Positions 12,301 to 30,048 of a stretch of DNA of 30,048 nucleotides are shown here, one piece after another. Source of the DNA: a virus. A program made the position numbers and the translations under genes. A model generated the notes under the pieces. It was not told where the DNA came from and did not search any database. It worked only from the letters and a program-made list of their open reading frames with translations. The DNA is taken from positions 1 to 30,048 of IMG/VR virus record IMGVR_UViG_3300020439_000046; one strand, given 5' to 3'. How positions within the stretch are numbered: the first letter of the stretch is position 1; every line of letters starts with the position of its first letter.

Positions 12301-13894
12301 TTCTACTCATTGGAGAACCATTAACGTATAATTCTTCAGCCTCTTGGAATGTACCTACAGATTGATACAAAATAATCTGAGAAGTATTCGCTGCAGACTG
12401 GTATAGATATCCAGATGCATTACTACTTTGTCCCTCAATAAAAGCGGGAGTCTTCAGATCATCTACAGAAGCATTGAGTTGCAAATAGGTGAATGTTTGA
12501 ATATCATATAGAGAAGATTCAAATACACTCTTAGCATTCTGATATTCTGCATTCTTGAGTTTTAAATCATATACTCTTGCAACACCAATTTGAATACCAC
12601 TAGCAGTTCCAGGGGTTGCAGTTCTATCACTATAGAGTTTTACATATGAATTAGTTCCAATTCCAACAGGAACTGATCCATACACATTATTCAACTCAAG
12701 TTGTTTACCTACACTAAAAGGTAGGGATTCATTTTTAATTGTTTTTGTATCTCTTGGTTTAGGTACGTCAACTGTTGTTGTACCTAATGTTTCTGCTTCA
12801 TATCCACGAACATATGCCTTACCAGGACCAATAGACAAGCAAAGCATGTCATCACTTGGTCTATTTCCCTGTTGTGTGAATTGTGTGGAGTAATATGCTC
12901 CATCATTACCAATTCGATTGTTGAGGGACTCTTTAACTGTAACTGGGAATGGAGTTACGTAATAATCACCAGATTCATCATAAGTTCTTCTCGCTAACTC
13001 ATCTCGAATAGTATTATAATCAGTCTTCTTAACAAACTTCGATAATTCACCCTTTTCAATTCTCATCAACTCAACGAAGTTTTCATCATTGAAGTCTGTG
13101 AGAGATTTCTTAATAAGTGTAGTAGAAATCTTTAATCTATCAGCACCAGGTGCTGCAAAGTTTGAAAAACCTCTAGCATTATCGTAGAGATCATTATTAA
13201 CATCAGATGCAGTAACTAACTGTTCATTGATTAATAAACCAATTCTATATGAAGGAGAATTTGAATATTGATCTAGAATAACTGTAGCAGTAGGTACAGT
13301 TACAAAGAAACCTCTGATGAAGTATACACCTTCAGAGATTTTTGCAGCAGAACCAGTTTTACAAGCATTAGATATGATTGTAGTCGCAAAACTAGCACCA
13401 GATCTAATACTCGATAGTGAATATGTAACGTCTTCTTGTACTAGGAGATTCTCACCATCTACAAATGTCTGTCTAGAGAAATCAGTTTCACTAGAACTCT
13501 GATATTTAATATAGAGGGTATATGTCCCCAATTCTGAGGATCTATTATCAATATAGTTTTCTACCTTAGCGATGACGCCACTAGTCTCGCCTTTAATTTT
13601 CTTACCCTTTAGACTTTGAAGATATAAAGAAACTGGAATACCAAGGTGGGTATCATCAATTTGAACAGCAGTATAATCAGGATCGTAAGCAATTTGCCCA
13701 GGAATTACAACAGATCCTTCTTTAAAAAAGTGCTTACCAAATTTCTCAACCTGATTCTGAAGAATAGATTGTAAGGTAGTTAATTCTCTAGATTGAATAG
13801 GTAGTCCAGGCTTAAATAACACCTTCTGGTAGTTATTAGCCTCGTTAAAATCATCAAAGTACGGAGATGAATTTAAGTTAGTATTTTGTGGCAT
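6380..13894 (-). CDS. DUF4815-type giant virion structural protein (2504 aa)
   Basis: The N-terminus (PYFDDFNEANNYQKVLFKPG, then IQSRELTTLQSILQNQVEKF and GSVVIPGQIAYD) is the DUF4815 signature common in T4-like cyanophage virion proteins. Landmarks: beta-rich repeats to about residue 1080; a short helical stretch near 1110-1135 (ISTIENRLKNIEYYTSLSLL); an arginine-rich segment near 1335-1355 (INRRRRRGRFQRGRG) flanked by Thr runs; WVDPLAQSFEVPDENGVYLT near 1660; a GG-x-GY motif (VSIGGTGYAAGD, about 1960-1975); an HG module (NNHGMYHNYDTVEL); and a C-terminus FQIKIIMNGTNFAHVPKIRD LRAIASI typical of the family. The start has GGAG 12 bases upstream inside the gp8 end, 6 bases after its stop. The position just after gp8 matches where T4 encodes gp9 to gp12, so a baseplate-peripheral or fibre-connecting role is likely but not shown. 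There is no enzyme motif. Confidence 0.92.
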   Translation of the reverse strand: MPQNTNLNSSPYFDDFNEANNYQKVLFKPGLPIQSRELTTLQSILQNQVEKFGKHFFKEGSVVIPGQIAYDPDYTAVQIDDTHLGIPVSLYLQSLKGKKIKGETSGVIAKVENYIDNRSSELGTYTLYIKYQSSSETDFSRQTFVDGENLLVQEDVTYSLSSIRSGASFATTIISNACKTGSAAKISEGVYFIRGFFVTVPTATVILDQYSNSPSYRIGLLINEQLVTASDVNNDLYDNARGFSNFAAPGADRLKISTTLIKKSLTDFNDENFVELMRIEKGELSKFVKKTDYNTIRDELARRTYDESGDYYVTPFPVTVKESLNNRIGNDGAYYSTQFTQQGNRPSDDMLCLSIGPGKAYVRGYEAETLGTTTVDVPKPRDTKTIKNESLPFSVGKQLELNNVYGSVPVGIGTNSYVKLYSDRTATPGTASGIQIGVARVYDLKLKNAEYQNAKSVFESSLYDIQTFTYLQLNASVDDLKTPAFIEGQSSNASGYLYQSAANTSQIILYQSVGTFQEAEELYVNGSPMSRTITKVDDYSIQDIHQLVGAGATFTADPILSLGQLLTNVGNQFTITAGSVGISTVTSPNANFAQSGIRTGDIVSYSVSGNSVPSYARIKTIDNTNSQLIIEATANVAGVNVGTLPTSDITANDFFKVTPEVLNNNSAYLYSEVTKTNIASVDLNGSDIVFRKSYNINVANNSYSATLESDADLTLEPFDEEDYNLTYSTGAIESLNNQKLTVSGRTVTLSNLSVGSDTGATLTVTLKKVNVKPKNKVYKRCSVYTVTNSAKTTSGIGMTTIQDGLTLSNQYGTRVQDKRISIGVPDVSSVVAVLESSSTSDPQFPSIVLTELNTNILNSLTGETIIGQNSGAAAVLVDNNGSNQVDFVYLNENTFETDEKVIFEESNVTATISSVVPGDKDIADNFELDPGQRSDYLDFSAIVRKSGSESPTRRLKIVYNHFVIEGSDPGDFVTVNSYDRSVYTFGIPFVDGRPVTDIIDLRPRATSVSSGYSPFEFNARVYDPLSSSSSHVVAKDKSMNMSYDFYLGRIDRLYLSKEGVFTLSKGVPAEEPIVPNVLESSLEIATIEMPPYVHDTSEVELSLATHKRYRMKDISTIENRLKNIEYYTSLSLLESETANMTLRDSQTNLDRFKSGFFVDNFKSSGGGDVENTQYKASIDSVDGRLRPQHYTTSIDLLLGSEAIVGAATSSSPSADYRFVSDLGDANVKRVGDVVCLNYEDTVFLENKFATRIENVNPFAVVNWIGNIELNPSTDTWIETRRSSATYDIEGNFSSFMQQTGADSNTGLSPIDWGSWETTWTGRSVSNGPRVLRQRTGSRVINRRRRRGRFQRGRGIPITTTTTIRDRFVNIREQTVTTTTNQTRQGIQFRVGERFDTTSLGDKVVSTEVIATMRSRNIEFVCRRLKPNTRLYAFFDNISMDAFLVPKLIEIEMVSGTFGPGETVVGDLPNSTSTGIRLRLATQNHKYGPYNAPTQVYKSNPYAPNSTISSSYSSTTTLLNVDTASLELQAASGFFGRIGKGMKLVGQSSGAIARVKDVRLITDKAGSLIGSLFIPDPTVPSAPTFNTGSKTFTLTSSAANSTISGFTDSSGEATFTSQGTLQNVEASTLRMRNADIERIPQSGNRTLTNTDTRLVANTTFNRRRTRQTRWVDPLAQSFEVPDENGVYLTKCDVYFRSKDNNELPVTLQVRTLQTGLPTQEILPFGECILSPDEVVLSEDGSQPTTFTFPSPCYLEGGGEYCIVLLSASNEYTVFISRMGEEDISTVNKAESEKIIVSQQPLLGSLFKSQNGATWDPSQLEDLKFNLYRAEFASTSGQVKFYNPDLSIGNRQIATLRKDPLDMVSKNVLVGISKSLTTAEKTNLTEGITIYQENNANFRGNLSKVLGAIGIGSELVLTSVGAGFTNASTSYNNVPLISRIGRGSGAKVNLTVNSGVAIAATVSIGGTGYAAGDILTVDAANTDGFGKNLILTIPNNVGVISAFNTILLDQVQGKPVIDAGSALVYVGTGGTSTISGGSIQYVQDATDGLHFRVKHNNHGMYHNYDTVELFDIESDVKPEKLTASYDSSSTDSIPVSAVGIFTNFENVNVDSSNFGYVKIGSEIIRYSGVSTASGTLTGITRAIDETRSGDYSVNDQVKKYELNGVSLRRINTTHKFSDTDMDTYPIDVDHYWIKVGIDSRGNDRGVGNASGFPELYWRETKSGGSYDARFVNTGILNVPRASQNIAFNILRPNVGTLLPEGTSIDAKLRTFTSNSPDGNLTAFVDQGYEAISMNSNNVMSSPRLIASKVNELNRLTDFPGRKSLTMQFFLNTTDTKVSPMIDLDRVNVITTMDRLNNKIDNYATDLRVNSLDSDPSAAIYLSKVVNLEKSADGLRVMFDAYRHPSNDIRVLYRIFRIDSPAEYQLFELFPGYDNLDATGEVVDKAKNSGLPDKRVLASTTEDDYREYQFNAKNLPQFNGFQIKIIMNGTNFAHVPKIRDLRAIASI

Positions 13895-13900
13895 TTTTCT

Positions 13901-15496
13901 TTAAAACTCCAGTACAATCTTGATATCTTCTTTTTGACTTGAAGACCTTGGGATAGCCGCTCGGTTATCGATGTAGATAATCTCACCTGACTTGGTATTA
14001 TATTCAGCAGAAGCAATACCTGCCGTAAAGTTCATTCCAAGTTGGTATGTTCTGTTATTTATTGAGGTATTGACACCCGCAAAGTTTGTATTAATTGATA
14101 ACAAAGGTCCTTGGACTGAAGAACCACCAATTGTTACACCATAACCAGTATCGGGATTGGATGTGAACGGAATAATTTTATATCCAGTAGCACTAGAAGC
14201 AAGACCCATTGGTTGATAGTACTTAAGCACTCCACTGATCTTGTCCCAAGATGCCACATATCCAATAGCAGTAGATCCAACACCAACTGTTTGTGTGATT
14301 GTTGAGTCAACTGCATAAGTCGTCGCGGTGGTCAATCCACCCATCTTCAGAGCTTTCAATCCACTAACAATAGAGGTATCGAGAAGTTCTCTATCACTAC
14401 CAAATACCGTTGGGTTTTTAATAATACCCACTCTCGCAAAGTCATTACCTTCAATGATATCTGGGTTTGTTTCTAGAGTTTCAAATCTTGCATAAAGAAG
14501 TGCTCTATATGCACCCAATTCACGATAGATATCATAACCATGACCACCTTTAGGTGGAACAATTACTGAAAACTGTGAAATGGAGGTTGTACCAATACCA
14601 GTATTGGTTAGGTTGGCCAAAGGACCACCAGTTTCACTTCCAGGCGCGCCAGGGAAGAATTGGATAGATCCATGAGTATATCCTTCACCACCATCAGTAA
14701 CAAAGACTTCAGAGACCTTTCCGAAAGAATCTACAGTGATGGTTGCCTTCCCTCCAGTTCCATCACCCAAAATAGGAACATTAGCAAACGATGTGGAGAT
14801 CGGTTGATAGTTTGTTCCTCTATCATCAATAACTACAACTTCAATTTTACCATCGATTGCATTGTTCTTCGTTGCAATAGTTTCACCTTGATCACCCCAA
14901 TTTTCTGGAACTGGAATATATTCAATAGAATCGAATTTTACAATTTCGGAAGGTTTGATTGTGTAAAGATATTTCCAAATATAACCATCGCCAGATGTAC
15001 CCGCTGCTCTGGCCTCAAGGTCAATAAATGTGGGTTGGTCGTATGATGGGCGACCCTTAGGGTTCTCGGGATCCGATCCATTTTGTAAGCAAATATAAAC
15101 TTTAAGGTCTTCGTTAACAATATAGTAATTAGCGTCATACAAACTACCCTGACTAGTAATAGGAGTCAGATTGTAGATATTGTAATCATGTCTATACATC
15201 TCATATGTAGTACCAGCTACCCACTTAACCTTTCGGACTAATCTACGGACATCTCTATCCGTAATTTTTTTCATAGCGATAATGGATTCTTTGATGGAAT
15301 ATTCTTCCTCAAAACCATCCAAAGGAGCAGGAGTATTAGTAGCCCATGTGGTAGTACCACCAGCTTCTGGTTGCGTCGAGTTGGGTAATCCCAAGAACGC
15401 ATAATACTTATTTACAGTAGAACCAACACCGACTAAACTCTTTACAAAAGTTTCGGCATTAAGAATCCTAAATTGTTCAGAAATTATAGCGGGCAT
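13901..15496 (-). CDS. 8: Baseplate wedge protein gp8
   Basis: gp8 is a dimeric wedge component that joins gp7 and gp10 in the T4 baseplate. From remembered T4 gp8 (334 aa), matches run along the chain: EQFRILNAETFVKSL near the N-terminus with T4 SKFRTEKMLNFYNSI; GDGYIWKYLYTIKPS (about residues 168-182) with GDGYVWEYLFEIPPD; FARVGIIKNPTVF with FRQISIITNPLEA; and the end SGEIIYIDNRAAI to KIVLEF with SGEMIYMENRPPI to NILFTF. At 531 aa it is about 200 longer than T4 gp8. Extra sequence includes a GG-x-GY module (VFVTDGGEGYTHG, about 265-277) and a Gly/Thr-rich region before the C-terminus. A 30-base gap to the 3002-residue gene holds only a degenerate promoter-like box and no strong ribosome site. 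The DUF4815 gene follows after 6 bases. Confidence 0.93.
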   Translation of the reverse strand: MPAIISEQFRILNAETFVKSLVGVGSTVNKYYAFLGLPNSTQPEAGGTTTWATNTPAPLDGFEEEYSIKESIIAMKKITDRDVRRLVRKVKWVAGTTYEMYRHDYNIYNLTPITSQGSLYDANYYIVNEDLKVYICLQNGSDPENPKGRPSYDQPTFIDLEARAAGTSGDGYIWKYLYTIKPSEIVKFDSIEYIPVPENWGDQGETIATKNNAIDGKIEVVVIDDRGTNYQPISTSFANVPILGDGTGGKATITVDSFGKVSEVFVTDGGEGYTHGSIQFFPGAPGSETGGPLANLTNTGIGTTSISQFSVIVPPKGGHGYDIYRELGAYRALLYARFETLETNPDIIEGNDFARVGIIKNPTVFGSDRELLDTSIVSGLKALKMGGLTTATTYAVDSTITQTVGVGSTAIGYVASWDKISGVLKYYQPMGLASSATGYKIIPFTSNPDTGYGVTIGGSSVQGPLLSINTNFAGVNTSINNRTYQLGMNFTAGIASAEYNTKSGEIIYIDNRAAIPRSSSQKEDIKIVLEF

Positions 15497-15526: not shown

Positions 15527-18500
15527 TTACGAAAGAGGTTGAATTCTTCGGACGGATGCAGCGGTCGATAAACCGACCATTCCAGCATCAACATTGACAT
15601 CAAATGCTTGAGGAGTACCTGCTCCTCTATTTTGATATCCGAAGATCTTACCCCAACTATATTTACCCCAGTAAGTATCAATAGTGGCCGTTGTACCAAC
15701 ACCAACTTGAATATCACTGTTGTTATTTGGACCTGGTTGGAAAGCACATGTGACAGTTACAAGACCAGAAACCGCATCTCCAGTAGTAACTCTCTCAACT
15801 CTGAATACACCTTCTAGATTCTCACCAGCAGAAATAATACCAACTTTATTTGCAGGATAGTTTGCATATCCACCAATAGAGGTAGTAATTCCAGTTAAAG
15901 CATGACCAACAACCAGTGGACTATCGTAGATAACGAAATAATCGTCTTTTTGTAGTCCAGAATAGTTGACTCCAAGGGTATTCAGTGAAGAATATCCATA
16001 ACCAAGGTTAGTATTATCATTAAATTCAGACTTAAGTGTAAATTGAAGTCTAGGTGGAACACTGAATCCAATTCCAGGCATCCAAGTATTTACACCAACA
16101 ATTACACCAAAATCACCTTCGGTTCTGAAAGAAAGAATCTCTTCCTTCTTAGGAACATCAGATTCAATAATAACAGATGGAGAAGAACCATACTCATAAC
16201 CAAATCCGCCATCAGTGATAGTGACACTTGTAACAATTCCATTGGTGACGGATGCAGTAGCAGTTGCTCTATTAGTAACTGGGTCTGCATAGAACTGTGT
16301 CGTTCCAGATCCAACTGAAATAATTCTTTGTCCTCTACTTGGACCAAAATTGGTGGCAACAATATCTCTAATCTCATTAGTATGAGGTACGTCTCTACGG
16401 TTCCAATTGATTAGATCAAAGGAATAGTAGAGAACACCGATGGTACTGATACCGATGTAAAGATTATCAATATATTTAAGGACTTTAAAGTCAAAAGTAG
16501 CTGGGTGAATAGCGTTGTTGTACTGTTGAGTACTCCAAGGTTCCCAATAATTCTTATCAGAGGAAACACCGATTGTTCCGTTATCACCAACAGTAATAAA
16601 TCTATTACCGTCGTAAATAATATCTCTCAAGTTGTATGGAGTATTACTTGCTTTTGGTGACCAGACTTTACCATCATTAGAGGCGACAATTTCACCACCA
16701 TTACCAACAGCAATAAATTCACCTTGTGCATAGACTACAGAGTTGAGATCTTGAACTGTGTTTGGATAGTTACTGAAGAATACATCACTAGTAACACCAA
16801 CCGCAGTAAATACAGATCCACCAGCACCAACTGCAACCCAAGTATCTACAACTGGTTCATAGATAACATCATTGAAAGTTTCTTCAAACGTACTTGGATA
16901 CTCAACAGTCAAGTTAAGAGCAGGGATTTGTCTCAGTTCTCTAAGTTCGATTTCAGAGAATGAAGTCAAACTGTTACCAACACCAGCAGCTCTAGCCAAA
17001 CTACCATACTCACCACCCGCAACAACATACTTAGTTGGATATCCAGAAGACTGTCCAACGCCTACACAATGGAACTGTACTGTTCCACCAAATCCAATAG
17101 TTCCTCTTTCCCAGAAACTTCCACTCTTAGTATTAATATACTGACTACTACCACCAACAGCAACGATTGGTTCTTGATCGGTCAGTGCTTTAAAATCAAC
17201 AACATTAGTTACACCACTAATTCCATCAAATCTCCAATCCTTAATTGGATCTGGTCTGGTAATACCAGAGGCAGAGATGTTCACTGTAGGGTTAACAATG
17301 TTCTTATATCCACTACCACCATCAACGATTACAATATCACTGATACTGGACGCAGTAGAGACAATAGATGTAACGATACCAGGAGTAATTTCTTCATCCT
17401 CAAAGATTTGAGCATTTCTTTCTGCCTGAGTTACAAGGTCAATTTCTGAGAATAATGGGAAAGCATTCTGAACTCTAATGAATCCATCCTGTTGATCTAC
17501 CTTGTGAATAAGTCTAGTAGTTGGAGTTACTCTACTCTTCAAACTTGGTCTAGCTTTTGGAACTAAAACACCAGATAGAACTCTATCTACCTTCTGTTTT
17601 TCCCACATCAGAGGTCTCTCTGCAACAGGATTTGTATCAATACCAATACTGTTGTAAGCGAATGTTTCTAGAACATCAGAAGCAACAATACGTTTTCCAG
17701 TTCTTTCAAACTGATCAATGTCAAAGATATTTTCTTTATTCTCTTTGATTTGAACAGTATCTCCAGCTTTTACGGTTAATGGAGGTTCAATAGTCTCTAC
17801 GTCTCTGGCAGATCCTCTATAGTAGAAAACAGAACACTTAGAGTTGCTCTTAGGAGCTTCACTAAAGATAACTCTACTACCTTTGAAAATGTAAGAAGTA
17901 CCTGGTGTTTGAAGGATATCATTAATGTAGATAAAGATATTATTAGTAATATCCATATCACTACCTGCAAGAGTCTTGAGACTTAGAATCTCGGTAGTTC
18001 CTCCAGTAGTAACAGAGAGAGTAAACTTCCTTCTATTGCTATTGAAGAATTTAGAAATATCATCAAAGAGGATGAATTGTCCAGGATAGAATCCAGAGAA
18101 CTTATCATTATCAAGTTCAATAACATTAAGTCTAAATTCAGTAAGAATACCAACTCTTGGGTCTGTTACGATTCCAGCAACCGTTAGAGAGTCTTCAACT
18201 TTATATGCAATACCCTCTTCGGTTAGATTAAACTCTCTAATGTCTCCATCAACATTAACTCGTAAATCAACAGTAGCATTAGTACCAATTCCAGTAGTAC
18301 CATCAATATAGTTTAGTGGTAGATTATAATAAGGATCTGGTTCAACGAAATCTAGGAAAATTGGTTTATCTACAGAACCACCACCAGTGTAATAGAAGTT
18401 CTCTGTTGTAAATCCCGCATTAACTCTAATGTTTGCACCATCAAATGCTTCAAGAACATCAAATCCAGAATATCCTTCTTCAATAGAAGAAGCGAGTCTC

Positions 18501-21500
18501 TTGCCCTTAAATGCAGTACCAATTCTATTGTAGAAGTGTTGACAAGTTGCAATACCAACGTTAGCAACGAATTCTCTGTTAGAAATAACCTTATCTACAA
18601 AAGTTCCACTTGCAGCATAATCTTCACCACTTGCAGAATTATTGTTAAATCTAGGAGCAATGATAGCACCCTGAATTGTTCCTCCACCAACATAGTAACT
18701 AGGAACAGTTGTTACTCCAACGTTAGCTTCAATGGTAGTATTGTTAATAACTCTAGTAATTTCAACCCCACCAAAATATGGATCACCATCCTTAGGATAT
18801 CCATGTTGTTGTGTATTGCCATCTTTAGTGCAGGTGAATATTAACCCTTCATTTCTAAACTTAAAGTTAGTATTAGCAAGTAGACTATGGGATCCAATTG
18901 CAAGGGTCATGATACCTACAACTGAGTTGTAATCTGCACCATCTACATCATATGGAACTGCGGTAGAAGTTCCAACATTAACTGTCAATGTATTGGATGT
19001 TGTAGCAGCGATTGCCAACCTTGCATTGTGTGCTGGATCAGTTGTACGTGGATATGAATGCTCAGATGCATTCTGATCCATTGTACAGGTGTAAATTAGA
19101 GAATTTGTAGCAATACCAACACCACCTTGGACAGTTGTCAATCCATGAGCAGTATCCGTTGTAAGTACAACAACTCCTGTTGATGGATCATATGTAGCAT
19201 CAGAAACGTTTAGTCTCTGAATAGTTGTTACACCAACATTTACAGTGAAGGTATTTTGTGTTGTGGTGACAACTCCAATTTCTTCTCCGTGTACTGGATC
19301 AGTTGTACGTGGATATGTGTGGTCAGTAGCATAATTGTCCTGAGCACATCTCCAAGTCAATCCATTAGTTGCAATACCAATGGTATTTTCAGATTTTTGT
19401 AAACATCCTTGATCAGCTCTCACAAATACATGAGTGTATTCTCCACCAGCGATAATAGAACTAGTAGCAGCAGATACAAAGATATGATCTGATTGGTTAG
19501 AAGACGTTCCAACATCTAATGTGATGGTCTGTTCTGTAGTAGATGTAATCTTAACCGCAGTGTTGTAAGCTGGATCTGGTCCAGTCAGTCCAGTAGCTCT
19601 AGGATAGTAGTGATTAGTTGCATGATTATCCATGCCACAAGTAAACTTAAATCCTCTAGTCTTAAGTCTTACAGACTGTCCTTTTCTGAGGTTGTGTGCT
19701 GTTCCAAATCCAACTGTCATTAATCCAGTTACAGGATCAAAAGATCCTGAAGTTGGGGAATAGAAATTGGTCAGACTTGTGCCAACATTAATATCAAAGA
19801 AATTAGTTCCTGTTCCTACAATAGGAACCCACTTATCGGAAATTGGATCGGTTCCTCTAGGATATGTGTGTTCTGTAGCTCTTCCATCAAGATCACACTT
19901 GAATACGAGTGAGTCATCTAATAGTTTAACTCTTTCACCAACTTGCCAACCATGGTTATTATCTAAGGTCAGTCTTAGTACTCCAGTACTAGGATTATAT
20001 GTGACGAGATTTGGCGTGTAAGTTTGAACACCACTATATCCGTGATCTGGAGAAGTAATTACAAGATCACCTGTTGATGGAACATAAGTTGCGGTTGTAA
20101 TTGCATTAGTTACTTGTGTTGTTACCCCAACTTGTAAAGTAATGGTATTTGCACTAGTAGATCCAATACCCAAAACTGCATTATGAGCAGGATCATCCAT
20201 ACGAGGATAAGCATGTTTAGTGGCATGATTATCTCTAGCACAAGTAAACGTATAAGAACCAGTTCCTACACCAACAGTGTATGCAGCTTTCTTAAGTCCG
20301 TTTGTAGTTGCAGATTGGAAGATATGATTACTTGTAGTACCAACACCAACAAATACTGAGAATGTGTTGACACCTACATGATAAACAGGCAACCACTTGT
20401 TTCTATATGAATCGGAAGGTCTAGGATATGCATGATTGCTACCATAATTGTCCTTGTCACAAGTAAATGTGATTGATCCATCATCAAACTTGATATACTC
20501 TCCATTCAAGAAACCATGATTAGGAACGGTAACCTCAAGTACACCAGCCGATGCGTTATAAGTTGCAGTTGTAATTGTGTGTCCAGACTGTGCATAATAA
20601 CTATGTCCAACACCAACAGTAACAACCATTTCTCCAGTAGAAGGATCATATGTTGCACCAGTTGCCTGACGAACTGCATATGTCGATACACCAACCCTGA
20701 CTGAAAGAGTATCAGCAGTTACACTGGTAATTCCCAACTCAGCATTATGAGCAGGGTCAGTAGTACGTGGATAGTCGTGGACAGTTGCGTATCCGTCCTT
20801 AGCACACTTAAATGATAGAGATCCTGTGGCAATTCCAATTCTTTGTACAGTTCTTTCCAATCCGTTAGGAGTGGCAGAAACAAAGTCATGGTTATAATTA
20901 CCACCAGTAATAACAGCACTAGAAGCAGCGCTAACGAATTGATATGGATAATCACCACCAGAGATGATAGATCCGACTGCACTACCTAGGTTAGGAACAA
21001 AAACGTGATTGTAATCCCAAGATGTACTTGGACCAACTTGCAGAGTAAGTAGAGTTCCTGCAGCACCTACAATAGGAACAGCAGTGTTGTAATATGGGTC
21101 GGAAGGTCTTGGATAGAAGTGAGTTGTTGTATATGCATTTTTGTTACACTTGAATCCAAGAGATTCATTCTTAATGCGAATACTCTGGCCAACTTGTAGA
21201 CCATGGATGACAGTCAATGCACAAGTCATAATACCCGTGGTTGGGGTATAATGTGCAAAAGCAACATCAAAAGGAACAATTGTACTTGGTCCTACGTTTA
21301 CTGAGAATGTAGTAGATCCAACACCCACAATTGATAGTGCAGACTCATATGCTGGGTCTGTTGTACGTGGATAGGTCTTATTTGAACCATATTGATCAAG
21401 ACCACAACTAAATGTGAGGGAATTTGCAGCAATCTTAATACTTGTACCAGTTGGTAATTCATGAGGACCAACGGTCATGGTCATGATACCAGTAGAAGGA

Positions 21501-24500
21501 GTATAATCTGCTCCACTTACATCAAAGTATTTTGTGCTAGTAACACCAACATAAACATCAAATGTATTCGTTGTTGTAGCAGCAATTCCCAACCACTGAC
21601 CATTTGCAGGATCATTTGCACGAGGATATGGATGGTTTGTGGCATGATTATCCATAGCACAAGTGAAAGTGATTCCACCTTGTGCAATTCTAACAGAATC
21701 ACCAACCAAGAATCCGTGAGTAGGAAGGGTTAATGTTAATTTACCAGTATTTGGTGTGTATTCTGCATCAGTTACAGTATGTTGTGTGGGACCACTAAGA
21801 CCATGACCAACAACTGTTAAAGTAAGATCTCCAGAATTTGGATTATAGTCAGCATGTGTAGGTGTAGTAGTACCACCACCAACTACGTTAATACAATCAT
21901 CATCAGCTGGAGAAACAAAAGTATGATTATATCCACCACCAACAATTATTGCTTCTTCTGATGATTCGGTATATGTGTGTGCATAGTTACCTCCACTGAA
22001 AATCGATTCAGAGATCGATGTGACGAAGGCATGGGGGAAATCACCTCCATTACGTAATGCACCCTCTACAGACCGTACAAACGTATGATCATATGCACCT
22101 CCAGTGATTACTGCACCAGTTTCTGCGGTTACAAAGGTGTGTGGATACTGATCTCTTGCTCCAGCATACCCAACATCAACTGTAATTGTCGTAGCACCTA
22201 CGGAAACAATAGGTACTGACGTGTCAAATGTAGAAGATCTTCTTCTTGGGTAATAATGGGTTCTAGCACCATTGTCTAATTGACATGTAAACCCTAATCC
22301 AGTCAATACTACTGTTCCAGCTTTTCCACCAACGGTATATCCATGAGGAGCAGCTGTAGTAACGGTCATTACACCCGTTGTATTATCATATGCAACGGTA
22401 CTAATTCCTAAAGATGGAGAATAATCACAAGTAAATGCAATTCCACTCAATACAACACAATCATCCAAATCAAGATTGTGACTATTCTTTGTAGTAAAAG
22501 TAGCAATACCAGAGGTGTTGTCATAAACAACGTTGGTAATTTCAACACCAGGAGCACTTGCAAAAGTAACAGCAATTCCAGTCACGGTTACAAAATCGTC
22601 AGTCACTAAACCATGATTTTCATACTTAATGTAAGAACCCATTCCAACAGCCTGATGGGTATGGATTCCAGAACGAATACCAAGATCTACAGTGTAATCA
22701 ATCGTACTTGGAGTTGACTTGACTGCAAAGAATTGATTTTTACCTTCTGGAGGTAAAGTAATATTTCCAGCTGGTGTACTAAATCCAATTCCAGTTAATT
22801 TTACAACATCATTAACCGACATTCCATGATTTGCTTGTGCTTGAATGGTTGCAATACCAGTAGAAGCAGTATAGTAAACATTAGCAATTCCAAGAGAATC
22901 ACTAAGTTTTTTACCATGAATAGTTACAGTTGTAATACCATCTGAGGGAGTATTTTCAATCCATGCAACTTTCTTAGTTGTAAAGTAATCTTGACCACCA
23001 GAAACAATATTCAGTGCAGTAACAATACCAGCCTGAGTTCTTTCTACTACACCACCAGTAACATAATCATGATTAAAGGTACTAACACCAACAAAGACTC
23101 TGAAAGTATTCGTAGTGACACCTAGAATATCAAATCCAACTTCATTTACAGCTTCAAGAATATTTGTATCAACACCAGCACGAACAAGACCACCACTTAC
23201 ATAAGTTAGTGGTTGTGTACCAACACCAACATCAATGTTTACGTCATTTGGACCAGATACATCAACAATAGGATATGCATCTTCCCTGAAAGTATATGTA
23301 CTAATACCATTAGAAACTTGTACTTGAGTAACTAGAAGATGTTTATTGGAATTTGTACCCGTTCCAATATAGTGACCACCAGTAACATTTACCGTTGCAA
23401 TGCCAGTAATGTAATCATACCCAAAGGTATTAACATTTCTGTTAGGAGATAATGGACTGAATGTAAATCCAGCTCCAGTAATCCTTACTCTTTCATCCTT
23501 AGCAAATCCATGAGCACCGTTTGTCTGGAATGTAGCAATTCCAGTAAACATATTGTATTGTGCTGTAGTAATACCGATTGTAGTTCCTTCATTCGTTCCA
23601 AGAACAGCAACAACACTTGCACCATAACCAACAGAAGATCTCACAGTGATTTCTGGAGGAGTTCTATATCCTTGACCTCTTCCAGTTAGTTTTGCAATTT
23701 CTAAAGTACCAGTTGTTCCAATTCCAGCAACAGCAGATGCTTTTAATGGGGTATAATATCCAGCACCCGTTTCAAGACCAACTTTTACAATTCTACCAGC
23801 TCTAGGTACACCACTTAAAAAATTAATTTTATTACTGTCAGTTCCTACAATTTCAAAATCCAAACCAGGAGTTTGAACAATGTTGTTGATTAGAACAAAT
23901 GGGTTGTTGTTAATATCAACACCCAAGTTTACGTTATTATAAAGTGCAGTAACAATTCCTAGGTTTTCAGATAACTCAAATTGAGTACCAGCAATTCCAG
24001 TAAACTCTAGAGAAATGTCATCAAGGACTAGGTTCTTATCTTTTGGTACATATGGGTCTAACTTTCTAGAGAACAATCTTCCAGAAAAAGTAGATCCAGT
24101 TAGAAGACCTACTGGACCTTGTTTACCATAGGGAGCATCAGTGAAGTAAATATCATCATCTACAATATTATAGTCCCCTGTAAATACAGAGTGTACTCCA
24201 ACTGTAGCGGTGTGATCTGTTGCGATAGATCCAAAAGCACCTCTTTCCACCACCACATCTGCAGCAGTAGTAGTACTGAAGACGGGGTAATATCCAACAC
24301 CAGGAACAAAAACTCTAACCGAGGCAATTGTTCCAATGCCTTGACTATTGTTTTTGATAATTGGATAAAAAACACCTTCTGTTGTAGGTGTTACAGTACC
24401 GTCGATCTCGATTTTTGGTGGGTCAGTCTTTGCGTAACCACTGCCTCCACTCAACACTTCAATTCTATGAACGCCGTAATTGGAAGTGAAGAATGGTCTT

Positions 24501-24535
24501 AGAAGAGCTCCTGATCCAGGTGTAGTCCTTGGCAT
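15527..24535 (-). CDS. Giant repeat virion protein (3002 aa): 12-copy C/D/H/YPR array plus propeller-like segment
   Basis: The start MPRTTPGSGALLRPFFTSNY has a strong ribosome site (GAGGAG, 24540-24545, four bases upstream). Layout: a GG-x-GY module at residues 25-44 (IEVLSGGSGYAKTDPP); an 'INNIVQTPGLDFEI' module near 209-229; repeated 'Y...(T/S)Gi(A/M)T.....HG...g..v.(L/I)....F' units from about 330; twelve units with F-x-C-x-x-D and H-x-YPR-x-x-DP at about 750-1935; a second QTPG module near 2200-2220 (FIYINDILQTPGTSYIF); GG-x-GY near 2400; a propeller-like segment at about 2449-2757 with blades such as FIAVGNGGEIVASNDGKVW and FITVGDNGTIGVSSDKNYW; another GG-x-GY (VTITDGGFGYEYG); and a Gly/Tyr-rich C-terminus. 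There is no signal peptide or membrane segment. It belongs with the long repeat virion proteins of cyanophages; a tail or baseplate fibre role is inferred from its place among the wedge genes. Confidence 0.9.
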   Translation of the reverse strand: MPRTTPGSGALLRPFFTSNYGVHRIEVLSGGSGYAKTDPPKIEIDGTVTPTTEGVFYPIIKNNSQGIGTIASVRVFVPGVGYYPVFSTTTAADVVVERGAFGSIATDHTATVGVHSVFTGDYNIVDDDIYFTDAPYGKQGPVGLLTGSTFSGRLFSRKLDPYVPKDKNLVLDDISLEFTGIAGTQFELSENLGIVTALYNNVNLGVDINNNPFVLINNIVQTPGLDFEIVGTDSNKINFLSGVPRAGRIVKVGLETGAGYYTPLKASAVAGIGTTGTLEIAKLTGRGQGYRTPPEITVRSSVGYGASVVAVLGTNEGTTIGITTAQYNMFTGIATFQTNGAHGFAKDERVRITGAGFTFSPLSPNRNVNTFGYDYITGIATVNVTGGHYIGTGTNSNKHLLVTQVQVSNGISTYTFREDAYPIVDVSGPNDVNIDVGVGTQPLTYVSGGLVRAGVDTNILEAVNEVGFDILGVTTNTFRVFVGVSTFNHDYVTGGVVERTQAGIVTALNIVSGGQDYFTTKKVAWIENTPSDGITTVTIHGKKLSDSLGIANVYYTASTGIATIQAQANHGMSVNDVVKLTGIGFSTPAGNITLPPEGKNQFFAVKSTPSTIDYTVDLGIRSGIHTHQAVGMGSYIKYENHGLVTDDFVTVTGIAVTFASAPGVEITNVVYDNTSGIATFTTKNSHNLDLDDCVVLSGIAFTCDYSPSLGISTVAYDNTTGVMTVTTAAPHGYTVGGKAGTVVLTGLGFTCQLDNGARTHYYPRRRSSTFDTSVPIVSVGATTITVDVGYAGARDQYPHTFVTAETGAVITGGAYDHTFVRSVEGALRNGGDFPHAFVTSISESIFSGGNYAHTYTESSEEAIIVGGGYNHTFVSPADDDCINVVGGGTTTPTHADYNPNSGDLTLTVVGHGLSGPTQHTVTDAEYTPNTGKLTLTLPTHGFLVGDSVRIAQGGITFTCAMDNHATNHPYPRANDPANGQWLGIAATTTNTFDVYVGVTSTKYFDVSGADYTPSTGIMTMTVGPHELPTGTSIKIAANSLTFSCGLDQYGSNKTYPRTTDPAYESALSIVGVGSTTFSVNVGPSTIVPFDVAFAHYTPTTGIMTCALTVIHGLQVGQSIRIKNESLGFKCNKNAYTTTHFYPRPSDPYYNTAVPIVGAAGTLLTLQVGPSTSWDYNHVFVPNLGSAVGSIISGGDYPYQFVSAASSAVITGGNYNHDFVSATPNGLERTVQRIGIATGSLSFKCAKDGYATVHDYPRTTDPAHNAELGITSVTADTLSVRVGVSTYAVRQATGATYDPSTGEMVVTVGVGHSYYAQSGHTITTATYNASAGVLEVTVPNHGFLNGEYIKFDDGSITFTCDKDNYGSNHAYPRPSDSYRNKWLPVYHVGVNTFSVFVGVGTTSNHIFQSATTNGLKKAAYTVGVGTGSYTFTCARDNHATKHAYPRMDDPAHNAVLGIGSTSANTITLQVGVTTQVTNAITTATYVPSTGDLVITSPDHGYSGVQTYTPNLVTYNPSTGVLRLTLDNNHGWQVGERVKLLDDSLVFKCDLDGRATEHTYPRGTDPISDKWVPIVGTGTNFFDINVGTSLTNFYSPTSGSFDPVTGLMTVGFGTAHNLRKGQSVRLKTRGFKFTCGMDNHATNHYYPRATGLTGPDPAYNTAVKITSTTEQTITLDVGTSSNQSDHIFVSAATSSIIAGGEYTHVFVRADQGCLQKSENTIGIATNGLTWRCAQDNYATDHTYPRTTDPVHGEEIGVVTTTQNTFTVNVGVTTIQRLNVSDATYDPSTGVVVLTTDTAHGLTTVQGGVGIATNSLIYTCTMDQNASEHSYPRTTDPAHNARLAIAATTSNTLTVNVGTSTAVPYDVDGADYNSVVGIMTLAIGSHSLLANTNFKFRNEGLIFTCTKDGNTQQHGYPKDGDPYFGGVEITRVINNTTIEANVGVTTVPSYYVGGGTIQGAIIAPRFNNNSASGEDYAASGTFVDKVISNREFVANVGIATCQHFYNRIGTAFKGKRLASSIEEGYSGFDVLEAFDGANIRVNAGFTTENFYYTGGGSVDKPIFLDFVEPDPYYNLPLNYIDGTTGIGTNATVDLRVNVDGDIREFNLTEEGIAYKVEDSLTVAGIVTDPRVGILTEFRLNVIELDNDKFSGFYPGQFILFDDISKFFNSNRRKFTLSVTTGGTTEILSLKTLAGSDMDITNNIFIYINDILQTPGTSYIFKGSRVIFSEAPKSNSKCSVFYYRGSARDVETIEPPLTVKAGDTVQIKENKENIFDIDQFERTGKRIVASDVLETFAYNSIGIDTNPVAERPLMWEKQKVDRVLSGVLVPKARPSLKSRVTPTTRLIHKVDQQDGFIRVQNAFPLFSEIDLVTQAERNAQIFEDEEITPGIVTSIVSTASSISDIVIVDGGSGYKNIVNPTVNISASGITRPDPIKDWRFDGISGVTNVVDFKALTDQEPIVAVGGSSQYINTKSGSFWERGTIGFGGTVQFHCVGVGQSSGYPTKYVVAGGEYGSLARAAGVGNSLTSFSEIELRELRQIPALNLTVEYPSTFEETFNDVIYEPVVDTWVAVGAGGSVFTAVGVTSDVFFSNYPNTVQDLNSVVYAQGEFIAVGNGGEIVASNDGKVWSPKASNTPYNLRDIIYDGNRFITVGDNGTIGVSSDKNYWEPWSTQQYNNAIHPATFDFKVLKYIDNLYIGISTIGVLYYSFDLINWNRRDVPHTNEIRDIVATNFGPSRGQRIISVGSGTTQFYADPVTNRATATASVTNGIVTSVTITDGGFGYEYGSSPSVIIESDVPKKEEILSFRTEGDFGVIVGVNTWMPGIGFSVPPRLQFTLKSEFNDNTNLGYGYSSLNTLGVNYSGLQKDDYFVIYDSPLVVGHALTGITTSIGGYANYPANKVGIISAGENLEGVFRVERVTTGDAVSGLVTVTCAFQPGPNNNSDIQVGVGTTATIDTYWGKYSWGKIFGYQNRGAGTPQAFDVNVDAGMVGLSTAASVRRIQPLS
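18700..22317 (-). repeat. Array of 12 imperfect protein-coding repeats (F-x-C-x-x-D ... H-x-YPR)
   Basis: It lies inside the 3002-residue gene. Each unit of about 85-140 codons carries a strand pair 'Y.P.TG.(M/L)....', an 'HG' turn, then (L/F).F.C..D......H.YPR..DP and a closing 'TI.V.VG.ST' strand. The YPR (YPK in the last) codons lie near 22245, 21625, 21370, 21110, 20770, 20425, 20203, 19857, 19600, 19306, 19046 and 18793. Adjacent units can be nearly identical over short stretches: a 24-base identity begins at 19033 and 19294, exactly 87 codons apart. Units 1, 4, 6 and 9 are interrupted by glycine/histidine sub-repeats. Confidence 0.85.
21885..22160 (-). repeat. Short tandem protein repeats GG-x-Y-x-H-x-F-V
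   Basis: Five consecutive units of about 20 residues (YPHTFV, YDHTFV, FPHAFV, YAHTYT, YNHTFV), most separated by a variable stretch ending in Gly-Gly, lie between repeat units 1 and 2 of the 3002-residue protein. Further copies recur after units 4, 6 and 9 (YNHVFV, YPYQFV, YNHDFV, SNHIFQ, SDHIFV, YTHVFV). The regular His spacing resembles a fibrous beta-helix with stacked histidines; that is inference. Confidence 0.75.
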
Positions 24536-24548
24536 TTATCTCCTCTTA

Positions 24549-25571
24549 TCAACTAATGTTTAGTGTACTGCTACAGTAGATTCTCGTTTGACCAGTACCA
24601 TCTCGGATAATACTAAAAGTAAGAATATCTTCTAATGCCGTAGATGGAGGTGGATTACCACCAACCCATTTAATACCGCCTGCGATTGATACTCCGTTCA
24701 CCGTTGCAGCATCCCCATAAGTGGATGATGTTCCTGCATCATTGATGATCGTAACTGTAGTGGCCTTACTATTTAACTGTGTTACATTAGTGAAAGCCCA
24801 GGTAGTTACTGAAGTAGTAAGTCCACCTAAAACTACAGATCCTTGATTCACATCAACGGTAAGAGTTCCTCCAATTGCAGTCAATGGAGTATTCCAATTA
24901 CCTTGAACTTGTTCTGTAATATCAGCAGCTAAATGAGTGGTATCATTGAAAGTACTAATACCACTAATTTGAAAATCACCTCTTACATCCAATCTTGATG
25001 ATGGAGCAGTTGAACCAAGTCCAACATAAGCACCAGAAGTAACAACAAAAGTTTCACTATCTACAATATCTTCTTGAGAAGATACTCTCAATCCATGTGC
25101 ATTACCTTTTGTAATTGCCCAAAGTGCAGGTTTTTCATGTGAGAAACTTGCAACTTGCAACTGAGATGTAGGGAGAGAGGTTCCGATGCCCACCATACCA
25201 TCGGACCTAATCCTCATCATAGTAGTTGCATATCCAATCTCAAGAGGACCATCAGTAATGGCCCCTGGTTGTTGAATAGTAATTTTTCCAATATCAGCAT
25301 AACTGGAAGTAACAACTCCAGTAGTATTGATATTGATATCATCGGAAACTTTAGAAGCTTCTTCAGCATAAGTTGAGGTACTAGCAATACCCGCATTAGT
25401 AGAGTACCCAGCAGTTGAAGCAAAAGATACAAAACTAACCAAATTATTACCATCTCCAAAGATATTGTAAATATCTTCAAAGTTGGCATTAATTTTCAAC
25501 GTTCCTGCTAGCAGGGTATCACCCGTGCCGTCATTCGGAGCAGTACCAGTATTAATCCCTTGTCTAGCCAT
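24549..25571 (-). CDS. Fibre-like baseplate protein with gp9/gp10-type N-terminus (340 aa)
   Basis: Residues 1-42, MARQGINTGTAPNDGTGDTL then LKINANFEDIYNIFGDG, match the start of T4 gp10 as I recall it (MKQNINIGNVVDDGTGDYLR, then IKINENFDELYYELGDG) and also T4 gp9 (STGDILFDGGNKINSDFNAI). In T4 these N-termini attach the pins and long-fibre sockets to the wedge. The middle holds fibre-type repeats (MRIRSDGMVGIGTSLPTSQL; VGLGSTAPSSRLDVRGDFQI). The C-terminal 110 residues (GTLTVDVNQGSVVL to GGIKWVGGNPPPS to IIRDGTGQTRIYCSSTLNIS) form a domain I know from cyanophage tail-fibre C-termini. It sits directly after the gp7-like gene and before the 3002-residue gene. A perfect late box (25594-25601) precedes it, but no strong Shine-Dalgarno. 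It is shorter than T4 gp10 (602 aa), so it is a gp10-like analogue rather than a proven orthologue. Confidence 0.87.
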   Translation of the reverse strand: MARQGINTGTAPNDGTGDTLLAGTLKINANFEDIYNIFGDGNNLVSFVSFASTAGYSTNAGIASTSTYAEEASKVSDDININTTGVVTSSYADIGKITIQQPGAITDGPLEIGYATTMMRIRSDGMVGIGTSLPTSQLQVASFSHEKPALWAITKGNAHGLRVSSQEDIVDSETFVVTSGAYVGLGSTAPSSRLDVRGDFQISGISTFNDTTHLAADITEQVQGNWNTPLTAIGGTLTVDVNQGSVVLGGLTTSVTTWAFTNVTQLNSKATTVTIINDAGTSSTYGDAATVNGVSIAGGIKWVGGNPPPSTALEDILTFSIIRDGTGQTRIYCSSTLNIS

Positions 25572-25603: not shown

Positions 25604-28600
25604 TTAATATGGAGGGTTGTCATCGTGAGTTGGGAATGTATCGTCAACCGTAGTTACATCGGAATTCATTCTCTTCACGTCATAATAGAAATTATTATCA
25701 ACTGTAGTTTCTGCGATTGCAAATCTAGATTGGACAAATGTAGTGTCACCAATAGATTTGACCTTCACCATCTCATCATCAATCTTGATGATGTCATTCT
25801 TAGCAATTGAACCAATACCAGAGGTAATAGAAATACTCTGGTCACTTGGACCCAAGTTAGATCCAATACCAATACTCAGTTTTTTATTTTTAATTGGTGT
25901 CTGAATGATATTATCAATCATAATCAGAGCATTCAAATTGGGATTGGAATATCTTAGAACGTGATTGCCTGTTCCAAATCCCGTAAAGTTAAGTGGAAGT
26001 CCTGTAGGAATACCACAAAGTTTAAAGTTAAAGTCATCTACCTTATTTACATAAACCAAATCTGGCATTGTTGTGCCACCCAATTGAATTGGTGTTAGGA
26101 AAATATCATCAGTAGGTGTAGCTCCTCCAATATATGTACCTGCAATGGAAATAACATCAGTATGTGCATAACCACTTCCACCCTGAACAACTTCAACGTC
26201 AACAACATCTAAGTTGGAATCTCTAGTGATATTGAAAATAGCACCAGTTCCAGCATTATTATTTGTTGATGGAACATTAGTATACGTTGACTGAATACCT
26301 GTGCGTGTACCAGTAACTCTAGTAACAGGGAATGATAAGTCATTAGCAGGAGACGCGCCTCCCAACCAAGTACCACCAATACTTACAGTATCTCCAACAA
26401 AGTATCCATTACCACCCTTGGTTAAAACTACATTAGTAGAAAGGGTAGATCCTTGACCATCATATGTAAATTTAACTTGGAATCTAGCACCAGTACCCCT
26501 AGTGGAGATGCCTGGGATACCACCCTCAGCCATTCCAAAACCAAACACCTTAAAGGTGACGATTGGGAATCCAGATGTCAATGAAGTACCAGTAACTCCA
26601 CCCTCAGGAATTTCAACGTTATATCCATTCTCAAACATTGCACTGCCACCAACACCAGAGGTGACTGCGGTCATAATGATATCTTTTGTACCAACAATTT
26701 GATCTGTAGTACCAATACCAATACCATCTCCTCCTTGTTTGTCATAGATCAACTCTTGACCAGTTTGGAAGTTATGATTAGGTAAATTAATAATATTATT
26801 AGTTAGATCAACTACATTTGGATTAGAAGAAGCAAAGGACACTCTAAAGATAGGACTTCCTTTAGACTTCAACTTAAATTGAGTCGAACCTACAAGAGTA
26901 CCAGTTCTATCATGAGCACCATTGAATCCTGTAGAAATATCATCAATATTCAGAACTTTGTTTGTCTTATTAAGAATGTAACTCTTAATAGGTCTACCTT
27001 CTGGGAAGAATATTCTCTGAACGGTTCCATCAGTCAATGCATCATCTTCAGTAACCATAGCAAAGTTTTCTCTGGTTCCCATGTAGATTTCATTGTCAAC
27101 ATTGACAATAAGATCGACCTTTGTATCGACTGGTTTAACTGCCATGTTGGTAGACTTGGCAACACCAACACTTACTAAATCAAAAGTTACAGCATCTTTC
27201 TTAGGATCACTCTCTAGCTGGAAGTCGGAGAACTCTCTGAATCCAGATGGGTGTAAGATAGATCTTACGGATTCTTTCCAAGTATTATAATCAAGATTAC
27301 TCTTAACTGAATAAGAGAACTTCTGGTAGTAGAAGTTGTCAGATATTCTTTGACTGAAGTCATTAAGAATACCAGTTTCTAGATCATTCTTTTCAATTTT
27401 ATCTCTAGTTACTCCCAATCTAGTTTTAACACTAAACCTACTTACATATCTGACGTTACCCTTCAGTTCAGATACTTCGCCAACCAAAGTATCACCTTCT
27501 CTCAATGTACCAATAGTATCTCTGAGTCTAAGTTGACTAATCTCACCATTCCAACCATTTTCTGCAACATATCCTTCAAATTTATTTGAAGTTACTTTCT
27601 CACCAGAAAGATACTTAGCATCATCAATCAACTTCATGCTAAACTTAGCCATGTCGTTGTAGTTGACAATGTATCCTAAGGTAAAATCATCATCATATGA
27701 ACCCAAAGGAGCAGTAGTAATGCCAGGAGCATTAGCCATACTGTAAGTAACTGTAAAGTTTGCAGTGTTTACACCAGTTACAGTAAAGAAATTATAGTCG
27801 TAAAGATCGGAGTTGAAGTTCTGTTCACCAGCAGCAAAAGAATCTGGTTTTAATCTACATCCTTCAATAAACACTCTATCACCAATAGCAAAAGGTAATT
27901 CAATATCGGTAGATCCATATCCAGTTCTAATGGGAATATTGAACTGAGGATCAAGTAACAATTCAACAGTTACATCTGTACCACTATGTGTAATTTGGTC
28001 AATGTCATAACCATTGGAATTATTTGTAGTAATAATGCTCAATGGTTCGTAGAATTCAAATGCATTTGTAACAACATCAACTCTAGATACAGATCCACCA
28101 CTTACATGAGCAGCAAGTTTAGCAGTATCATTTCCACGAATCGCCAGATTTGGTGGTTGTGTGTAATTCTTACCTCCGTCAGTAACTCTGACTTCATCAA
28201 TTCTTGCAATTCCGTTTACATCTACAATTGCAGGAACATTTAGGAATGGTAATAGTGTGGGATCAGTAGGATAATCGAATCCATCTTTCACTCTCTCTAG
28301 AGTATCAATTTCACCAACTTCTTCGGAGAAGATTTTGGCAACACCATCTACACCAGACGTAGTATCAAAATCAACTACTCTAGGAAGTCTCCTATATCCC
28401 TTTCCTGGGAAGTTGACTTTAAGTTTAGCAATAGGACCAACTGCACTACGAGAACTAGTCTCATAAGTGATTGTAGAAACACCAGCCAACGATACAAACA
28501 TCTGAGGTTCAGATGGTTTGCTCTTCAGATTGAAATTAAAAGTAGTATCATCAACTTTTACGATAGTATGTTCATTATCGAGAACAATCTTATTCAGAGT

Positions 28601-30048
28601 TATATTATTTCTTCCTTTTACTTCCTTATCTGAAGAAATATTCAGTTTTCTTTCATCAGAAGGGACAACAGGAATTACCTGATAATAACATTTTCTTGGG
28701 AAATCGGTTGAAGTAGTAATTTCAACTGTAGCACCAGTATTACCAGTAACTGCATTTCTCTTGATATTAAATCCCTGATTAACATTTCCAGAGGTCTCAA
28801 TATCTTTTACAAAATCAATATCTTCAAAGAACCTAAGTTCCATGTTTCTGAGACTTACATCAGAAACATCAAATGTAACTCTATCACCTCTAACAAAATC
28901 AAATGGTGGATTTACTCTTGCTAAGTAATAGTTACCTGTAGGTACATTAGTAATGTTGACGATAGTACCACTATCAACATCCGCTTTATGTTTACAGAGT
29001 TTGATGTACTCTGGAGATTCTCTCAATACAAAATAAGTTTCATTATGAACTAATCCAGTAATGTTTGTATTATCAACATAGAAAACAACCTTATCACCTG
29101 TATTGTAACTAGTATCATTAATTTTAAAACCAGTTAGATCAGCAGTAAATGAAGTTTGATCAAAAGCAACTTTCTTAGTAGTAACTTTAGCAATAACTGG
29201 ATCAAATCTCAACTCCACGGTCTCTGTCTGAGTTGGAATAGCAGTTAACTTAATCTCATCTTTGGTTGAAAGATTATGATTTGTCTTAGTAGTAACTTGA
29301 CCAAAGTATTTCTCAGCAACAGCAGTTACTTTCGGGAAATTAGTTGCTACTGAGTGAGCTGCACCAATATTACTTGCAACACTATACCACCAAACAGCAT
29401 CAGCAGCGGTTGGGAATCCAACTGTAGATATACCAAGGTAATCATTACCAAAGTTTACTGCATAGTAGGTCTCCCCACTCTCAAGTCTTTCTGTACCAAC
29501 CCCAGAAGTTGATCCAACAGCGGTCTTAGCATATGTTAGTGATGTTCCACCAACACCCATGTGATATACAAGACTTTGACCAGTGTAGAACTTATGGTTG
29601 GGAATGTATAACTGTCTTTGTGGTACGAATCTATTTTCAATCGTTTCATTAGCCGCAGAAAGACCCAAACCAGTCAGAGAAATATCATAATGTGTTCCAG
29701 TAGATCCCATACCTACAGTAAAGGTAGGATCAAAGAAGAGCATTTGATTGGTATATGTCAAATAGGACAATTTAATGTCCTTATCTTCAACCAATTCAAA
29801 TTTATTTGGTTTTAAGAATACATTATTAGTTCCAACAGCATGTGTGATACCAATACCAACATAATATTCTCTGTTGACTCTAAATCTACCAAACTCACTA
29901 TCTACATTCAAAATAGTAAGAGTCTCAGTACCAATACCAATTACGTCACCAGCTACAAAGTCTCTAGTATCTGTAACTGAAATATATGTGGTAATGCCAG
30001 TAGCACCAACATCAGCAAGTTCAACATTTAGACCTGTTGTTCTTGTTT
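25604..30048 (-). CDS. Probable gp7-type baseplate wedge protein, 5' end outside window (at least 1480 aa)
   Basis: The frame stays open past a TTG at 29911 to the right edge (TRTTGLNVELADVGATGITT upstream), so the true start is outside. About two thirds along (27239-27340, in-window residues about 903-936), NFYYQKFSYSVKSNL, W-K and HPSGF match a T4 gp7 C-terminal stretch I recall (SYYVMKIKSNL, then W-K and HPVGFGF). The stretch before it (REGDTLVGEVSELKGNVRYV) is also comparable. gp7 organises the T4 wedge and contacts gp8 and gp10; both partners are encoded downstream here. The rest is beta-rich, with four GG-x-GY-type motifs (FPGKGYRRLPRV, VTDGGKNYTQPP, LTKGGNGYFVGD, VVQGGSGYAHTD) and HG-like modules (TNHNLSTKDEIKL, NHNFQTGQELIY). 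At 1480+ aa it exceeds T4 gp7 (1032 aa), so it would be an enlarged or fused form. Virion role is secure; gp7 identity is moderate. Confidence 0.85.
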   Translation of the reverse strand, partial: TRTTGLNVELADVGATGITTYISVTDTRDFVAGDVIGIGTETLTILNVDSEFGRFRVNREYYVGIGITHAVGTNNVFLKPNKFELVEDKDIKLSYLTYTNQMLFFDPTFTVGMGSTGTHYDISLTGLGLSAANETIENRFVPQRQLYIPNHKFYTGQSLVYHMGVGGTSLTYAKTAVGSTSGVGTERLESGETYYAVNFGNDYLGISTVGFPTAADAVWWYSVASNIGAAHSVATNFPKVTAVAEKYFGQVTTKTNHNLSTKDEIKLTAIPTQTETVELRFDPVIAKVTTKKVAFDQTSFTADLTGFKINDTSYNTGDKVVFYVDNTNITGLVHNETYFVLRESPEYIKLCKHKADVDSGTIVNITNVPTGNYYLARVNPPFDFVRGDRVTFDVSDVSLRNMELRFFEDIDFVKDIETSGNVNQGFNIKRNAVTGNTGATVEITTSTDFPRKCYYQVIPVVPSDERKLNISSDKEVKGRNNITLNKIVLDNEHTIVKVDDTTFNFNLKSKPSEPQMFVSLAGVSTITYETSSRSAVGPIAKLKVNFPGKGYRRLPRVVDFDTTSGVDGVAKIFSEEVGEIDTLERVKDGFDYPTDPTLLPFLNVPAIVDVNGIARIDEVRVTDGGKNYTQPPNLAIRGNDTAKLAAHVSGGSVSRVDVVTNAFEFYEPLSIITTNNSNGYDIDQITHSGTDVTVELLLDPQFNIPIRTGYGSTDIELPFAIGDRVFIEGCRLKPDSFAAGEQNFNSDLYDYNFFTVTGVNTANFTVTYSMANAPGITTAPLGSYDDDFTLGYIVNYNDMAKFSMKLIDDAKYLSGEKVTSNKFEGYVAENGWNGEISQLRLRDTIGTLREGDTLVGEVSELKGNVRYVSRFSVKTRLGVTRDKIEKNDLETGILNDFSQRISDNFYYQKFSYSVKSNLDYNTWKESVRSILHPSGFREFSDFQLESDPKKDAVTFDLVSVGVAKSTNMAVKPVDTKVDLIVNVDNEIYMGTRENFAMVTEDDALTDGTVQRIFFPEGRPIKSYILNKTNKVLNIDDISTGFNGAHDRTGTLVGSTQFKLKSKGSPIFRVSFASSNPNVVDLTNNIINLPNHNFQTGQELIYDKQGGDGIGIGTTDQIVGTKDIIMTAVTSGVGGSAMFENGYNVEIPEGGVTGTSLTSGFPIVTFKVFGFGMAEGGIPGISTRGTGARFQVKFTYDGQGSTLSTNVVLTKGGNGYFVGDTVSIGGTWLGGASPANDLSFPVTRVTGTRTGIQSTYTNVPSTNNNAGTGAIFNITRDSNLDVVDVEVVQGGSGYAHTDVISIAGTYIGGATPTDDIFLTPIQLGGTTMPDLVYVNKVDDFNFKLCGIPTGLPLNFTGFGTGNHVLRYSNPNLNALIMIDNIIQTPIKNKKLSIGIGSNLGPSDQSISITSGIGSIAKNDIIKIDDEMVKVKSIGDTTFVQSRFAIAETTVDNNFYYDVKRMNSDVTTVDDTFPTHDDNPPY

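Follow-up and report, generated by a model that had tools for sequence, protein, structure and literature searches.

The window, that is the whole stretch of 30,048 bases analysed here, is an uncultivated virus record (IMG/VR IMGVR_UViG_3300020439_000046) of a T4-like marine cyanophage near Synechococcus phage S-SSM7 (Kyanoviridae). Its minus strand carries, in this order, a gp7-like fragment (25604-30046), a gp9/10-N-like protein (24549-25571), a giant gp7-like baseplate or structural protein of 3002 aa (15527-24535), a gp8-like protein (13901-15496) and a DUF4815 protein (6380-13894). The 3002 aa protein matches PHROG baseplate wedge, tail fiber and structural families and aligns with SSSM7_103 of S-SSM7, which is annotated as the gp7 baseplate wedge. 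This collinear similarity and the gp8- and gp9/10-like neighbours place it among the gp7-like giant baseplate proteins of cyanophages. A phmmer comparison of the whole protein with all PDB chains found no similarity to T4 gp7 or to anything else of known structure, and the name gp7 thus rests on the annotation of its relatives.

An earlier note on this DNA had reported, without giving a strand, a 12-copy repeat with conserved C, D, H and YPR residues at 18700-22317. All 12 units were found in the single minus-strand ORF 15527-24535, with the consensus CxxDx5HxYPR and C-to-R spans from 22285 down to 18791. In the order of the protein these are unit 1 (CQLDNGARTHYYPR, 22244-22285, Y of YP[RK] at aa 762), unit 2 (CAMDNHATNHPYPR, 21620-21661, aa 970), unit 3 (CGLDQYGSNKTYPR, 21365-21406, aa 1055), unit 4 (CNKNAYTTTHFYPR, 21107-21148, aa 1141), unit 5 (CAKDGYATVHDYPR, 20765-20806, aa 1255), unit 6 (CDKDNYGSNHAYPR, 20420-20461, aa 1370), unit 7 (CARDNHATKHAYPR, 20201-20242, aa 1443), unit 8 (CDLDGRATEHTYPR, 19856-19897, aa 1558), unit 9 (CGMDNHATNHYYPR, 19598-19639, aa 1644), unit 10 (CAQDNYATDHTYPR, 19307-19348, aa 1741), unit 11 (CTMDQNASEHSYPR, 19046-19087, aa 1828) and unit 12 (CTKDGNTQQHGYPK, 18791-18832, aa 1913). 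All 12 units have C and Y-P, and D, H and R are each present in 11, the exceptions being those already noted: Asn for Asp in unit 4 (KCNKNAYTTTHFYPR), Lys for His in unit 3 (GSNKTYPR) and YPK, with Lys for Arg, in unit 12. At the codon level the C-D-H-Y-P pattern occurs ten times in the window, compared with 0.01 expected from shuffled sequences, and none of 100 shuffles reached ten.

The spacings between successive units (208, 85, 86, 114, 115, 73, 115, 86, 97, 87 and 85 residues) cover 73-208 residues rather than the range of about 85-140 given earlier. Such variable spacing fits inserted segments containing H-x-F and TG. A second short repeat, GGxYxHxFVS, of about 25-29 residues, is found between units of the same ORF, at aa about 805-885, 1185-1220 and 1695-1705, and may be the source of part of the variation. 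Upstream of unit 1, Cys703 (22427-22429, minus strand) ends an FxC strand in the context GIAFTCDYSP, with no D/H/YPR loop, and may mark a degenerate or related unit.

The S-SSM7 orthologue has 3001 aa and 12 units in the same order, ten of the 12 window units having their positional counterpart in S-SSM7 as best match. Units 2 and 6 have His in the window and Lys in both S-SSM7 and the related locus L051, whereas unit 3 has Lys in all three; unit 4, with Asn in the window, has Asp in the other two. Free exchange with Lys is unexpected of a metal ligand, and the swaps therefore count against a metal site.

A two-unit protein query found the module in 325 public phage records, all of them Synechococcus or Prochlorococcus phages, cyanophages or unassigned marine virus records; among isolates, the repeat class is restricted to marine cyanophages. 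Further loci were obtained with DNA-pattern scans, the patterns of which require C, D and H, and iterated profiles gave 672 units in 153 sequences. Profiles built on two units drifted to single units on iteration. Matches in contigs of Enhydrobacter, Polaromonas and Rhizobium were out of frame and were discarded as chance. A giant wedge initiator has been detected in virions of S-SZBM1 (PMC9146016); this protein of 6619 aa has no YPR units, and so it supports only the virion location of the protein family.

Some arrays were found under cellular names. A 188,235-base contig titled Nonlabens xiamenensis 1Q3 (L022, NZ_RMVE01000006.1) was 98.5 % identical, at the protein level, in the stretch read, to cyanophage P-TIM40 (188,632 bases), and is most likely a cyanophage contaminating a flavobacterial isolate assembly. 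Ten other contigs with YPR arrays (L005, L007, L010, L011, L020, L023, L028, L031, L035 and L040) had been assigned to MAGs of Flavobacteriales, Dehalococcoidia, Euryarchaeota, Planctomycetes or Rhodobacteraceae; these are probably misbinned phage contigs. Ten loci (L071, L099, L127, L128, L200, L244, L246, L262, L264 and L273) encode small complete proteins, 322-457 aa long, that have two or three FxC units and contain no further Cys. In size they resemble PHROG 1276, a profile of 325 positions and unknown function which also matches the window protein, and they could be used as minimal models for structure work.

In 495 units with less than 80 % identity, C was conserved in 99 %, P in 100 %, Y and R each in 95 %, the first D in 90 % and H in 75 %, with K at the His site in 17 %. 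A second Asp, in the TDP that follows YPR, had not been mentioned before and was present in 94 %, which is more than either the first Asp or the His. Of the residues named in the earlier note, His varies most across the family. Both the DNA pattern and the profile are biased towards the motif, and units were therefore searched for a second time by their flanks alone, with everything from C to DP masked. This motif-blind profile gave 499 units, 497 of them with C, including 325 with the canonical C-D-H-YP and 81 with C-D-K-YP. Three of the four rows in this set labelled as having YPR and no C do carry C, with a long loop.

The loop from C to YP varied from 6 to 22 residues, with a mode of 10, and D and H were at the canonical spacing in 281 of 481 unique segments. 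Losses of D11 and H17 (Cys being numbered 8) were associated (odds ratio 6.8, p 1e-9) and C was retained; 31 units had neither D nor H. Units with short loops had lost D, often H too, and kept C. In a divergent subclass (L033, L105, L117 and L126) YPR is replaced by HPR, SPR or APE and the glycine loops are short; the Cys is kept here too.

Two adjacent units (aa 921-1096; 21248-21775, minus strand) were modelled with AlphaFold2 from an input containing 93 related two-unit stretches. The model (mean pLDDT 92.1, pTM 0.67) was all-beta with a small barrel for each unit. FxC is predicted to end one strand, CxxD to form one helical turn and HxYP to form the facing strand: C39 follows strand 35-38, residues 40-42 (AMD) make one turn of helix, and H48 and Y50 are within strand 47-50. 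The earlier note had raised the question of whether the conserved residues would be far apart; in this predicted structure C, D and H are all on one hairpin. Mean-field direct coupling of 532 units (effective number 445, Cys numbered 8) gave the pairs 5-18, 7-16 and 5-16, in the same hairpin register as the model, as well as D11-Y19, D11-H17 and Y19-D24, in which the first Asp is coupled to both Tyr19 and position 17, and the second Asp to Tyr19. Independent BFVD models of the S-SSM7 gp7 matched over 167-176 aligned columns with rmsd 2.2-2.4 (E 1e-16).

Searches of Pfam, NCBIfam and the PDB with the whole protein and with units gave no domain name, and no Pfam match up to E 0.5 was found to the YHYH domain (PF14240), which is annotated on the Sf-FS3 homologue. 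A PDB match to iota-carbonic anhydrase was weak, consisting of three sub-threshold stretches, and was dropped; a match to the retroviral Gag zinc knuckle (E 4) was a chance C-H resemblance. Fold matches to Uba6 recurred, at E 0.2-2.8 and probability up to 0.87.

Viral contigs also contained a sister class, FxC-x10-FPD (for example GITTTIFPD), which shares C and the aromatic-Pro with the YPR class but has none of its Asp, His and Arg. The two classes are homologous, with the same C-to-Pro distance and similar strand order, and in the hhalign alignment the C and the P of one class fall on those of the other (probability 97.7, E 2e-12). The C-to-Pro loop of the FxC...GITTTIFPD units was 10 residues in 77 and 11 residues in 41 of 121 units. 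Among the 27 FPD sequences lacking FxC, 22 carry an upstream HTYxSGG-like segment in place of the FxC strand. The sister-class model had a mean pLDDT of 81.5 and also gave a weak match to the phi92 endosialidase barrel. As this class has neither D nor H, conservation of the Cys does not depend on them.

The YPR module is best read as an undescribed repeat class. With a probability of roughly 0.6, the 12 units are small beta-barrel modules in which the conserved set locks a surface hairpin, and the array is a spacer or host-contact surface of the baseplate. Twelve tandem all-beta barrels, FCCH/SH3-like, would then build an extended chain of beads in the gp7-like protein, and the conserved set would be the signature of one beta-hairpin inserted in each barrel. 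The F-x-C strand would end in the Cys, followed by the one-turn helix C-x-x-D and a loop, with the H-x-Y-P strand pairing back. In both classes the hairpin would be packed around an invariant core of Cys and the aromatic-Pro. In the YPR class only, Asp (+3 from the Cys), His or Lys (+9), Arg (+13) and Asp (+16) may form a polar network of hydrogen bonds and salt bridges which locks the loop. The baseplate setting suggests that the array would most likely serve as a stiff spacer and host-contact surface, with a possible adhesin role.

The earlier proposal that the conserved residues stabilise each unit thus stands as regards a repeat with a structural role. The evidence does not support a metal site or bond common to Cys, Asp and His, because D and H vary independently of C, His and Lys exchange at orthologous positions, and the sister class keeps C and the aromatic-Pro without D or H. 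It is consequently unlikely that Cys, Asp and His, possibly joined by the second Asp, act as metal ligands in every canonical unit, which would amount to as many as a dozen metal sites in a chain. Such a site would agree with the position of all three residues on one hairpin of a confident model, with the coupling of D and H, with a Cys which is almost never replaced and with retention of the set in isolated and odd-numbered units, but the ligands are not conserved together across units: the three residues stand together at canonical spacing in only 281 of the 481 unique units, Lys takes the place of His in about 17 % of units, orthologous sites included, and the sister class keeps its C with neither D nor H.

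Disulfides formed by the single unit Cys between neighbouring units or chains after lysis, stiffening the fibre, are likewise improbable. The unit Cys is nearly invariant, 12 of the 21 Cys of the 3002 aa protein are unit Cys and the neighbouring proteins have few, and phage Milano, reported to have a disulfide network in its tail (PMC10811340), provides a precedent. However, units may be less than 60 or more than 200 residues apart, which offers no fixed geometry, and no second conserved Cys was found within the unit in the 495 divergent units. Seven complete proteins of 431-457 aa each have three units and exactly three Cys, so that complete intrachain pairing is ruled out in these seven; interchain disulfides are possible. 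A Cys-His-Asp catalytic triad of a protease or transamidase in 12 copies is highly improbable, for although C, H and D share one hairpin, many units have Lys for His or have lost the Asp, no enzyme family was matched, and twelve copies would stand in a structural chain.

Packing of a locked hairpin does not by itself readily explain why Cys, and not some other small residue, is kept in 497 of 499 divergent units, and the thiol may have a chemical role. It is improbable that arrays of thiols on the baseplates of these common marine cyanophages serve to bind a metal or are attached covalently to a ligand; if true, there could be dozens of sites per virion, with an effect on trace-metal chemistry or host attachment. 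Apart from this, a module present in 325 phage records and yet without an entry in Pfam, NCBIfam or the PDB is recognised, giving the domain a name accounts for much of the content of giant baseplate genes that otherwise lack annotation, and the attractive but weak case for a Cys-Asp-His metal site is set aside.

The nearest known kind of protein is the cyanophage gp7-like giant wedge protein, represented by S-SSM7 SSSM7_103, P-SSM2 gp7 and PHROG 2885, 5342, 701 and 1276. These are known by annotation only, and the repeat has not been described as a Pfam or NCBIfam domain. The E1 FCCH domain (PF16190; Uba6 structures) is a more distant likeness. Ten of 51 aligned sister-class members match the E1_FCCH profile (best E 6.7e-5) and weak structure matches recur, whereas the 12 YPR units have no direct match to the profile; the likeness of the units to FCCH is weak, as no solved structure was matched at E<=0.001. 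FCCH is not known to have a conserved Cys hairpin. The earlier note had also compared the array with the tip of the T4 long fibre, gp37, in which iron is coordinated by HxH motifs. Alteromonas phage R22Y also has an HxH fibre (PMC11705849). The array resembles both fibres in having a repeated His-containing motif in a phage tail protein, but the comparison fails on the motif, since the units carry no repeated HxH and have H (or K)-x-Y-P-R, an HxY with a replaceable His, set in beta-barrel units rather than in a fibre tip.
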